From Engelhardtia mirabilis (GTDB taxonomy: Bacteria; Planctomycetota; UBA1135; GCA-002686595), in assembly GCA_007751255.1 (NCBI GenBank), contig CP036296.1:1922001-1986000 (forward strand): a stretch of 64,000 nucleotides of DNA. Reading direction: 5' to 3'. Position numbers and translations under genes: made by a program. Below, one piece after another: positions 10,303-13,856 of the stretch (position 1 is the first letter of the stretch; every line of letters begins with the position of its first letter). Below the pieces are notes generated by a model that searched no databases, had not been told where the DNA came from, and saw only the letters and a program-made list of their open reading frames with translations.

Positions 10303-11469
10303 ATGAGCCAAGCCCTCAAGATCCTGCTCTGCTTCGCCGCCTTCCTCGCAGGAGTGACCCTTCTCCACGGTTGGCTCAATCTGGCCTGGTTCGAGCCCTC
10401 CAACCGTGAGCAACTGACGGTTGCCCACTTGCCGGTGACATGACACCTCACCTGCCCGGTCACCAGTTGGGTGACCGAACAGTCCACCGAGGGCACGATC
10501 TTCCACTCGAAGCGCTACACGAGCTGGCCGTCGATGACCGAGGACATCGACGCGGGCAACCTGCACGCGGCGTTCATCCTGGCGCCCCTGGCGATGCAGA
10601 TGGCGCGCCAGGGCAAGACCAAGGTCAAGATTGTCCACCTGGGCCACCGCGACGGGACCGCGATCGTGGTGCCGACGGACTCCAAGGTGGAGTCGTTCGC
10701 GGACCTGCGTGGGACTCGAATGGCGATCCCGCACCGCTACGCCAACCAGCGCATCCTGGTCGAGCGGATGATGGCGGAGTACGGCTTCAGCGAGGACGAC
10801 CTCAAACTGATCGACTACCCCCCGCCGGAGATGCCGGCGGCGCTCAAGGCGGGCGCCTTCGAGAGCTACATCGTCGGTGAGCCCTTCGCGGCCAAGGCCG
10901 AGATGGACGGCTTCGGGCGGGTGCTCTACCACACCAAGGACATCTGGCCGAACTTCATCTCCTGCGTGCTGATCGTGACCCAGGACCTGATCGACCGCGA
11001 TCCGGCCCTGGTGCAGGAGCTGGTCAGCGGCATCACGGCCTCGGGCAAGTGGCTCGACGAGGGCGACGAGCGGTTGCTCTCGGGCCTGGTGATGGAGAGC
11101 GCCTCGAACCAGGACGACGTCGACTCCGGCAAGGTGATCGTGCCCGACGAGTTCGGCCGCACCCCGCGTCTGCAGGCGGCCGTGATCGCCGCTCAGCGGC
11201 GGTACTACAACCAGAACCCCGAGCTGCTGAAGTTCGTGCTCACCAAGCCGCCGGACCGCGTCAAGTACACCGAGCTGGAGCTGGCCCGCGACGAGTTCGC
11301 GGAGATCCAGCACTGGGCCGAGAAGTTGGGCTTCTTCGACAGCCGACCGGTGACCGAAGACGATCCCTTCGACTTCCTGGACTACTGCGACCCGCGCTTC
11401 GAGCAGGGGCGCCTGCGGGACCTGCCCCTGCAAGACCTCGCGAGCGCCGCGGCGGAGGGTGCGCAATGA
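10303..11469 (+). CDS. ABC importer substrate-binding protein with predicted selenocysteine (UGA at codon 47)
   Basis: This is the solute receptor of a NitT/TauT-type importer (NMT1/THI5-like fold), 388 residues when UGA is read as Sec. A membrane anchor or uncleaved signal lies at residues about 5-30. The first beta-strand LTVAHLPVT then leads directly into U47, followed by HLTC (C51). The rest of the periplasmic-binding fold follows unbroken, including FADLRGTRMAIPHRYANQRI and LKAGAFESYIVGEPFAAK. The TGA at 10441-10443 is the only interruption and the frame continues for 341 codons to a stop overlapping the permease start. A canonical bacterial SECIS hairpin begins 13 nt after the TGA. Without recoding, annotation would start at the GTG at 10471 and lose anchor and pocket strand. 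Seen: UGA, hairpin, intact frame. Inferred: Sec insertion. Confidence 0.85.
10441..10477 (+). promoter_or_regulatory. Bacterial SECIS element of the ABC substrate-binding gene
   Basis: The UGA codon is followed by 21 bases to the apical loop. The stem CGGTCACC (10457-10464) pairs perfectly over 8 bp with GGTGACCG (10470-10477), enclosing the loop AGTTG. Known bacterial SECIS elements have a UGA-to-loop distance of roughly 16-37 nt, a stem of at least four pairs and a G within the first two loop bases. All three conditions are met, and the loop has the GU seen in SelB-binding loops. Confidence 0.85.
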
Positions 11470-12233
11470 GTCCCCGTGCCCTGCTCTTGGGGACGGTCGG
11501 CTTCGCGATCTTCATCCTCTCCTGGCACCTCGCCACCCTGGGCAATCAGATCGGCGACCTGCCCGGCCCGGCCATGACCGTGCGCGGCCTGGTACAGATC
11601 GCCGGCGAGGGCGTCCTGTGGGAGAACGTGGTGGCCTCGGTCTTCCGCGTCGCCTGGGGCTTCTGCCTGGCCGCCGGCATCGGCATCCCGCTGGGCATGG
11701 CCTTCGGCTGGTACCCGCGCCTGCGCGAGACGTTCAACCCGCTGGTGCAGTCCCTGCGCCCGATCTCGCCGATCGCGTGGTTGCCCTTCGCCGTGATCCT
11801 GTTCGGCGGCATTCGCATGTCGAGCGACCTGGCGGCGATCTTCCTGCTGTTCCTGTCGGCCTTCTTCCCGATCGTCACCGCCTCGACCTCGGCGGTGGCC
11901 TCCCTGGACCTCAAGTACATCCGCTCGGCCCGCAACTTCGGCGTCGACGGCCTGGCCTTCTTCCGCCGCGTGGTCCTGCCAGCCTCCCTGCCCCAGATCC
12001 TGACCGGACTGCGCCTGGCCCTGGGCATCGCCTGGGTCGTCGTGGTCGCGGCCGAGATGCTCGGCGTGGAGAGCGGCCTGGGCTACCAAGTCATGGACTC
12101 GCGCAACGCCCTGCGGATGGACTTCGTCTCCGCCGCCATGGTCGTGATCGCGGCCATCGGCTTGATGCTCGACATGGCCATGGCCAGGGTCGAGGCCACG
12201 GCCCTCGCCCGGCGGGGGATGAGCCGCCGATGA
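11466..12233 (+). CDS. ABC importer permease, NitT/TauT type
   Basis: A 255-residue inner-membrane permease of the BPD_transp_1 family with about six helices. Its first helix is LLLGTVGFAIFILSWHLATL. The coupling region around residues 130-185 contains ARNFGVDGLAFFRRVVLPAS, the family's EAA-type loop that docks on the ATPase. Its ATG overlaps the stop of the selenocysteine-containing receptor (ATGA), and its own stop overlaps the ATPase start in the same way, so translation of the three subunits is coupled. The import substrate is set by the receptor and is unknown; taurine, nitrate and sulfonate systems are the nearest familiar relatives. Confidence 0.92.
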   Translation: MSPRALLLGTVGFAIFILSWHLATLGNQIGDLPGPAMTVRGLVQIAGEGVLWENVVASVFRVAWGFCLAAGIGIPLGMAFGWYPRLRETFNPLVQSLRPISPIAWLPFAVILFGGIRMSSDLAAIFLLFLSAFFPIVTASTSAVASLDLKYIRSARNFGVDGLAFFRRVVLPASLPQILTGLRLALGIAWVVVVAAEMLGVESGLGYQVMDSRNALRMDFVSAAMVVIAAIGLMLDMAMARVEATALARRGMSRR

Positions 12234-13036
12234 GCGCGACCGAACCCGAGGCCCGGCAAGGGGCCGAACCGCGAACCATGCAAGCTGGCGCCAAGATCGT
12301 CGTGCGCGACGTCCGCAAGACCTTCCCCACCAAGAAGGAAGATGTGAACGTCCTGGACGGCGTCGACCTGACCGTGCGCGAGGGGGAGTTCCTCGCGATC
12401 GTCGGTCCTTCGGGCTGTGGCAAGTCGACCCTGCTCAACTGCATGGCGGGTTTCGAGCGCATCACCTCCGGATCGATCCGCATCGACTCCGAGGAGATCG
12501 AGCGACCGTCTCCCAAGCGCGTGTTTGTCTTCCAGGAGACGGGGATCTTTCCCTGGTACTCGGTCTGGGACAACATCGGCTTCGGCCTGGGCAAGATGCC
12601 CTTCGACAAGAAGCACGAGATCGTCATGCGCTACATCGCGCTGGTCGGGCTCGAGGGCTTCGAGAAGGCCTTTCCCGCGGAGCTCTCGGGTGGCATGAAG
12701 CAGCGGGTGGAGTTCGCCCGCGCCCTGGCCGTCGAGCCGGACGTGCTCTTCCTGGACGAGCCCTTCGGCGCTCTGGACGCCTTCACCCGCCTCGAGATGC
12801 GCCGCGAGATCGTGCGCATCTGGAAGGAGACCGGGAAGACCTGCATCCTCGTCACCCACGACGTGGAGGAGGCGGTGGAGCTCGCGGACCGCGTGGCCGT
12901 GATGACCCGTCGGCCCGCACGGATCCACTCGGTGCTCGACAACCCCCTGGAGCGACCGCGCGACTCGGACCAACCAGTCTTCCGCGAGCTCAAGGACCAG
13001 ATCTTCGAGATCCTGGGCGTCGAGCGACGGGTCTGA
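12230..13036 (+). CDS. ABC importer ATPase, NitT/TauT type
   Basis: A 268-residue nucleotide-binding subunit. Visible motifs are Walker A GPSGCGKST (about residues 59-67), the Q-loop in VFVFQETGIFPW, the signature LSGGMKQRVEFARAL, Walker B VLFLDEPFGALDAFT and the switch histidine in LVTHDVEEA. About 23 extra N-terminal residues precede the domain, so initiation at the internal Met (MQAGAKIVV) is possible. The ATGA overlap with the permease supports the upstream start. It ends the three-gene importer operon, and a strong hairpin follows. Confidence 0.93.
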   Translation: MSATEPEARQGAEPRTMQAGAKIVVRDVRKTFPTKKEDVNVLDGVDLTVREGEFLAIVGPSGCGKSTLLNCMAGFERITSGSIRIDSEEIERPSPKRVFVFQETGIFPWYSVWDNIGFGLGKMPFDKKHEIVMRYIALVGLEGFEKAFPAELSGGMKQRVEFARALAVEPDVLFLDEPFGALDAFTRLEMRREIVRIWKETGKTCILVTHDVEEAVELADRVAVMTRRPARIHSVLDNPLERPRDSDQPVFRELKDQIFEILGVERRV

Positions 13037-13118: not shown

Positions 13119-13856
13119 TCAACGCGGACCGGCGATGCGGTGGGGGACTTGGCCCAGGTCCCAGTCGATCACCAGGCCCTTGGCGATGCCGTCCGCCGCG
13201 CGCTTGCCGTAGAGCAGTTCTGCCAGGTACAGGGCCGGCTCGAAGGACGGCGCACCGCCCACGGACGTGATCGCCCGCCCGTCGTGGACGAAGCGCGCGT
13301 CGTGGTGGACGGTCAGGCTCGGGAACATCTCGGCCAGTCGTTCCCGATCGGCCGGAAAGGTCGTCACCTCCAGCCCATCAAGCAGCCCCGCCTGGGCCAG
13401 GACGAAGGCCCCGTCGCACAGGGACATGACGTAGTGCGCGCCGCTCCCCCGTTCGCGCACGAAGCCGATCAGCGCGGCGTCGTCCAGGTCCGAGTCCATC
13501 GAGTGCTCGGCGCTGGGCACCACCAGAACGTCGATCGCGGGGGCCGACGCGAAGGTGTAGTCGGGCAGCAGCCGCAGCCCCTCGAAGCTGGTCACCGGCT
13601 CCAGGTCGTGCGCCACGGTGAAGACGCGCAGGGCCTGGTCGGCGTGGAAGACCGAATGGTGGAGGATGTCGAAGGGAGCCGTCAGCTCGGTGTTGTAGAC
13701 ACCGTCGACGATGACGAAGCCCACCGACCACTCGCGATCGGGGCGGACCGCCACCGGAGTTGCGGCGGTCTCGGTCGCGCGGGCCCGATCGAGACCGGAG
13801 CAACCGCAGGCGAGCAGGGCGGGCAGCAAGACCAGCCAGGTGCTGTGGGTCTTCAT
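13119..13856 (-). CDS. Secreted DJ-1/PfpI family lipoprotein
   Basis: This 245-residue protein begins with a lipoprotein-like signal ending in LLACGC, so Cys17 or Cys19 may be lipidated. The rest is a DJ-1/PfpI-type flavodoxin-like fold: VGFVIVDGVYNTELTAPFDIL at the start, IDVLVVPSA in the middle and the nucleophile-elbow cysteine in SLCDGAFVLAQAG. Family members include glyoxalases, chaperone-like enzymes and the N-terminal halves of AraC regulators. The present protein has no DNA-binding domain and is probably exported, so an extracytoplasmic detoxification or stress role is only a guess. Confidence 0.8.
   Translation of the reverse strand: MKTHSTWLVLLPALLACGCSGLDRARATETAATPVAVRPDREWSVGFVIVDGVYNTELTAPFDILHHSVFHADQALRVFTVAHDLEPVTSFEGLRLLPDYTFASAPAIDVLVVPSAEHSMDSDLDDAALIGFVRERGSGAHYVMSLCDGAFVLAQAGLLDGLEVTTFPADRERLAEMFPSLTVHHDARFVHDGRAITSVGGAPSFEPALYLAELLYGKRAADGIAKGLVIDWDLGQVPHRIAGPR

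Follow-up and report, generated by a model that had tools for sequence, protein, structure and literature searches.

A three-gene importer operon with an in-frame TGA

We examined a 64,000-nucleotide stretch of the Engelhardtia mirabilis genome (assembly GCA_007751255.1, contig CP036296.1, positions 1,922,001 to 1,986,000, hereafter the window). It carries an operon for an ATP-binding cassette (ABC) importer in which the gene for the substrate-binding protein contains an in-frame TGA at codon 47. An initial annotation had read this TGA as a selenocysteine (Sec) codon followed by a hairpin of the kind that directs Sec insertion (a selenocysteine insertion sequence, SECIS). The features of this operon, numbered by position in the window, are as follows.

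10303..11469, + strand: gene for the substrate-binding protein, encoding 388 residues including Sec47; N-terminal helix at residues 3-26, NMT1_2 domain
10441..10443, + strand: codon 47, an in-frame TGA predicted to encode Sec; close relatives without Sec have Cys
10453..10455, + strand: Cys51 codon within the motif PVT-U-HLT-C-P; Cys is present in all 91 compared proteins, a set partly found through motifs containing Cys51
10457..10477, + strand: SECIS-like hairpin, 8 bp with an AGTTG loop, beginning 13 nt past the TGA
10963..10965, + strand: Cys221 codon within the FISC motif; 90 of the 91 proteins have Cys and 1 has a gap
11466..12233, + strand: ABC permease, top NCBIfam match SaoP (148.1 bits, cut-off 295)
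12230..13036, + strand: ABC ATPase, top NCBIfam match SaoA (235.3 bits, cut-off 360)

The frame from 10303 to 11469 is open both upstream and downstream of codon 47, and the terminal TGA of the gene (11467-11469) overlaps the ATG of the permease gene at 11466 to form ATGA. On re-reading the sequence, the location of the internal TGA, the intact frame and this overlap were exactly as first annotated. The read-through protein matches Pfam NMT1_2 (3.5e-32) and NMT1 (1.9e-14), which agrees with its first description as an NMT1/THI5-like protein. A domain score above the gathering score, the fold and the order of binding protein, permease and ATPase genes together place it among NMT1/NitT-TauT-type binding proteins. 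Its operon partners are a BPD_transp_1 permease and an ABC ATPase, and its first helix (residues 3-26) probably anchors it in the membrane.

Codon 47 is TGA or Cys across the family

Among 101 genomes of the order, 48 have a match (the E. mirabilis genome included), and with four genomes that have only weak matches left out, the resulting 44 loci have TGA at codon 47 in 37 cases and Cys in 7. A search of named genomes provided 80 loci, the best-scoring among 240 relatives that were confirmed, with TGA in 52, TGC in 21 and TGT in 7; PVTCHLTC and FISC served as its seeds, so it favours those motifs, and many of its genomes overlap the 44-locus set. Overall, these 124 loci, from overlapping genomes and representing 93 distinct sequences, have solely TGA or Cys at this codon, which is the pattern that the initial annotation had proposed looking for. 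His48, Cys51, His115 and Glu193 are invariant and Cys221 is conserved.

We also made two draws by whole-protein profile that are free of motif bias (392 and 396 genomes, some of which recur). The Planctomycetota draw has matches at 1e-40 in 30 of 392 genomes (codon 47 TGA 20, Cys 6, Asp 4), and the Acidobacteriota draw has 21 matches in 20 of 396 genomes (TGA 6, Cys 13, Thr 2). When pooled, the 51 matches comprise 26 TGA, 19 Cys, 4 Asp and 2 Thr forms. The Asp and Thr forms are six distant paralogues: the four Asp-type relatives also lack Cys51, and the two Thr-type proteins from Acidobacteriota (L222 and L223) have the motif MPVITNLACP in which the following Cys is kept. One Acidobacteriota genome (G114) carries both a Thr-type paralogue and the Sec form.

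Neither TAA nor TAG was seen at codon 47 in any locus set or motif-free draw; the initial annotation had named such codons in close relatives as the mark of a simple nonsense mutation. A nonsense mutation or a sequencing error in a dying gene would put a stop codon at this position, and the presence of that codon is all that speaks for such an explanation. Speaking against it are the recurrence of TGA, never TAA or TAG, at the same codon in both locus sets, the occurrence of TGA in two records titled as complete genomes (L133, CP036290, Pla163, and L098, CP036434, Poly30), and the conservation of the remainder of the protein, as seen in 24 of the 44 loci that were compared. The relatives refute this explanation in practice, and we consider its probability negligible. 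TGA also serves as the normal terminator of this gene: within the 44-locus set the stop is visible in 41 loci and is TGA in 35 of them, indicating that this codon is not generally reassigned. The family extends over Planctomycetota, Acidobacteriota and Myxococcota, with the TGA form also present in a draft genome of Paraliomyxa miuraensis (Myxococcota).

Translation could instead stop at the TGA and restart at the GTG at 10471, yielding two pieces. An open reading frame of 332 amino acids does run from this GTG, and the start is one that automatic annotation could plausibly choose. However, its product would be missing the N-terminal helix and the first strand, the Cys homologues are continuous, and in the same 24 loci the stretch upstream of the TGA stays conserved as far as the motif (G/A)(F/H)LPVT. 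We regard a restart as very improbable.

The distribution of the two forms was followed on a tree, built by a quick method, of 91 of the 93 distinct sequences (two short rows were dropped) with residue 47 masked. The Sec or Cys label requires 12 changes on this tree, at least 10 of which are forced by well-supported branches. Selenoprotein families typically show such repeated exchange of Sec and Cys between closely related members.

A conserved hairpin follows the TGA

The hairpin downstream of codon 47 consists of a stem strand CGGTCACC (10457-10464), the loop AGTTG (10465-10469) and a second strand GGTGACCG (10470-10477). Its stem is perfect over 8 bp and its loop starts 21 nt past the TGA, so the coordinates first reported for it hold. 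When every TGA triplet in the window was scanned for a perfect Watson-Crick stem of 8 bp starting 9-17 nt downstream, with a loop of 3-8 nt and a G in loop bases 1-2, this type of hairpin followed one of 506 triplets on the + strand, which is codon 47, and none of 549 on the - strand (1 of 1,055 overall).

We compared stem pairing with synonymous redraws of the codons in the 56 of 63 distinct TGA sequences and the 13 of 30 distinct Cys sequences that fit a common local protein motif (H-x-x-CPV-x-x-W). The TGA genes have a mean of 6.64 of 7 stem positions paired, with G-U allowed, versus a mean of 5.42 in the redraws (standard deviation 0.11, maximum 5.82 in 2,000 draws), and 55 of the 56 form 6-7 of the 7 pairs. 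The Cys genes have 4.92 paired positions versus 4.85 in their redraws. The loop shows a similar pattern, with its Ser codon being AGT in 55 of 55 TGA genes and in 5 of 9 Cys genes; AGT makes up 11% of all 840 Ser codons in the TGA genes, the 55 loop codons included. Across 46 distinct TGA segments the AGTTG loop is invariant, five of the six inner stem pairs form in all 46, and the sixth forms in 45. One inner pair is C-G in 39 segments and G-C in 7, a swap in which two codons change their third positions in concert. A hairpin directly downstream of the TGA and under selection, as expected of a SECIS element, is therefore what these genes contain, less clearly so in some distant TGA forms. A second and longer form of hairpin, likewise located 13 nt past the TGA, is present in L162, L146 and L167 (z -2.7 to -4.3 relative to synonymous recoding). 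The family perhaps has two different SECIS architectures.

Selenocysteine machinery accompanies the TGA form

The initial annotation had also pointed to selA, selB, selC and selD, and all four were found in the E. mirabilis genome, with tRNA-Sec (selC), SelB, SelA and SelD each scoring over the family cut-offs. The selA and selD genes are adjacent (G000:C1:2446683-2449100, outside the window), with selD directly after selA. This selD itself is interrupted by a TGA in frame, within the motif ACAGUAAK, and its product is probably a selenoprotein as well. Two of the features by which a bacterial selenoprotein is recognized, an in-frame TGA aligned with Cys and a Sec machinery in the same genome, are thus present.

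For the comparison among relatives, 48 non-independent genomes were chosen from the 80 named-genome loci. SelA is over its cut-off in 20 of 21 genomes with the TGA form versus 13 of 27 with the Cys form (Fisher p 4.7e-4), and four Rhodopirellula-type Cys genomes had no SelA over the cut-off. The remaining TGA genome, that of L155, has a 92-residue SelA fragment that scores below the cut-off at a contig end; SelA was the sole component searched there. In the 44-locus set, SelB exceeds its cut-off in 33 of the 37 genomes with the TGA form, but as it is also found in 93 of the 101 genomes of the order it does not discriminate between the forms there. Four TGA genomes (G022, G028, G048 and G059) have SelB below the cut-off, yet each has SelA or tRNA-Sec over it, and the Cys genome G024 has no SelB over the cut-off but has both SelA and tRNA-Sec. 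Every TGA genome tested, that of L155 excepted, has at least one Sec component over its cut-off; these counts do not extend to the genomes of L211, L215, L219 and L221.

Several observations weigh against Sec decoding guided by a hairpin. Of the 46 distinct segments, only 17 and 31 respectively form the outer two pairs of the window stem, and the fold energy of the 54-nt region of the window is ordinary among synonymous recodings (z -0.27). Hairpins are weak (z about -1.6 to -1.7) in L157 and L159, which have the longer form, and in L221, and in the Acidobacteriota TGA members L211, L215 and L219 no downstream hairpin stands out from synonymous shuffles (z -0.23 to 0.55); these three may have either an unusual SECIS or another mode of decoding. 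The TGA-form gene of G030 (L067) lacks the AGTTG hairpin, with 4 of 7 pairs in a test that covered the AGTTG form only. Finally, an independent-pairs test of SelA against Sec, from which L155 was left out, was non-significant (8 pairs; concordant 1.9, opposite 0.0, median p 0.5), indicating that the co-occurrence of SelA and Sec rests on genomes that are not independent.

The evidence from the hairpin is its specific inner stem and the conservation of that stem, rather than bulk stability. With the alignment of TGA and Cys, the Sec genes and this conservation all favouring the reading of UGA as Sec that was first put forward, we conclude from this comparative evidence that UGA codon 47 is very probably decoded as Sec under guidance of the hairpin, and that Sec has been exchanged with Cys during evolution.

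Relation to known Sec-containing binding proteins

The initial annotation knew of no Sec-containing binding protein of the NitT/TauT type. This part needs amending, as SaoX and SaoB are already published as predicted ABC substrate-binding selenoproteins (Haft & Gwadz 2023, as described in PMC13188914). That review counts 119 selenoprotein families or subfamilies, and the ABC-type binding proteins in its table are SaoX (UxP), SaoB (CUxxT) and BtuF (CxxU). No Sec-containing NMT1 binding protein beyond SaoX and SaoB was found in the consulted portions of PMC13188914, PMC12013277, PMC9312934, PMC5029168 and PMC4807772, a scope that stops short of the selenoprotein table (Planctomycetes P1, P2) in the PMC4807772 supplement; the family may have been noticed in Haft & Gwadz 2023, Haft & Tolstoy 2025 or Deng et al. 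2026.

SaoX (NF040735) resembles the present protein in being an NMT1/SsuA-like importer binding protein with a predicted Sec, a likeness at the superfamily level, and its model matches all 24 scanned family members with E up to 1. The scores differ greatly from its cut-off of 300 bits, at 40.7 bits for the E. mirabilis protein and between 37.2 and 64.8 bits for the 8 members with scores, and assignment as a SaoX equivalog was rejected by this NCBIfam cut-off. The SaoX motif in the review is UxP versus U-HLTCP here, and as the model alignment begins after residue 47 the Sec positions are not comparable. SaoB (NF040727) is likewise a Sec-containing ABC binding protein, and the UxxT part of its motif also fits U47-H-L-T50; its model matches 3 of 24 family members, with a best E of 7e-4.

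These likenesses raise the question of whether the operon is a divergent SaoX/SaoB-type member of the SAO (SaoABCX...) system, a transporter of organometal chemistry. Supporting this are the matches to the SaoX and SaoB models and the fact that, among NCBIfam models, SaoP is the best for the permease and SaoA the best for the ATPase. However, all three proteins score far under the curated cut-offs, SsuA_fam outscores SaoX for the binding protein (78.5 bits), and the motif TUHLTCP differs from both review motifs (PMC13188914). SaoL gave no match in the E. mirabilis genome, but its control was equally silent and other Sao families were not searched. Beyond the three ABC genes no widely conserved neighbours occur across the relatives. 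We consider SAO membership improbable. Instead, this looks like a new selenoprotein family of Planctomycetota, Acidobacteriota and Myxococcota that is a variant of known Sec-containing ABC binding proteins, set apart from SaoX by model score. A DJ-1/PfpI family gene (window 13122-13856, - strand) adjoins the operon on the opposite strand, with a lipoprotein-like N-terminus by eye.

A possible ligand role for residue 47

In the mechanism that we propose, SelA, SelB, SelC and SelD would decode UGA codon 47 as Sec in the importer binding protein, directed by the short hairpin that begins 13 nt downstream and is itself coding sequence. Residue 47 would follow directly on the first beta strand, within a loop expected from the fold to line the ligand cleft, where His48, Cys51, His115, Glu193 and Cys221 are candidate neighbours. 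Sec or Cys at this position may then directly ligate a metal or another soft substrate, which would be captured and passed to the permease. We put this placement and role together at slightly below an even chance, and consider the role the likeliest one because distant relatives have Asp or His at 47 and because 3un6, which has His there, was deposited with zinc. Counting against it, the metal reading draws on the 3un6 title and residue types, not on coordinates.

The nearest solved structure is 3un6, an ABC binding protein from Staphylococcus aureus, which differs in having His at 47 in place of Sec/Cys and Leu at 51 in place of Cys. It shares Cys at position 221 with a homologue, also His-type, from Ruminococcus albus. 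The CmpA/NrtA bicarbonate and nitrate binding proteins have 16% identity, and the related NrtC domain has Asp at the Sec47 position (u154623: TDSAPL). Position 47 in the relatives seen is Asp, His, Cys or Sec, with Thr in one paralogue group, and these are mostly metal-ligand residues. On plasmid pRUMAL02 of R. albus 7 (L201:2986-6717), genes for a 3un6-like binding protein, a permease and an ATPase lie directly upstream of cooS. The cooS product is carbon-monoxide dehydrogenase, a nickel enzyme, and this neighbourhood is a possible clue that the 3un6-like branch carries metal.

A different role for Sec47 would be that of a redox residue, forming a selenylsulfide with Cys51 (U-x-x-x-C) in a protein that senses or reduces and does not coordinate a ligand. 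Cys51 is present in all 91 Sec and Cys forms and is missing in the four Asp-type relatives, so residues 47 and 51 go together there, and most uncharacterised selenoproteins are held to be probably redox proteins (PMC13188914). On the other side, this is a full ABC binding protein encoded with its permease and ATPase, the two Thr-type paralogues retain Cys51 without Cys47, and distant relatives with Asp or His at 47 keep other ligand-type residues, which fits better with binding. We consider the redox role rather unlikely.

Implications for selenium use in uptake

Sec is an expensive amino acid, and most of the selenoproteins known are considered to act in redox chemistry. Many Sec/Cys swaps in a binding protein would suggest that uptake can make use of selenium for binding a ligand. 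Named strains with the TGA form include Pla163 and Poly30, which we take to be cultured strains, and Paraliomyxa miuraensis, so this is testable. Automatic annotation may truncate or mis-start genes of this family, because none of the 8 members that were scored reaches the cut-off of any NCBIfam model. Judging from the sequences, we tentatively suggest that this importer family uses Sec as a capture-site ligand rather than for catalysis, which could represent selenolate-based uptake of soft metals or metal complexes by environmental bacteria. Selenium would then perhaps aid the grip on the imported substance, in a Sec form that recurs in dozens of bacteria.
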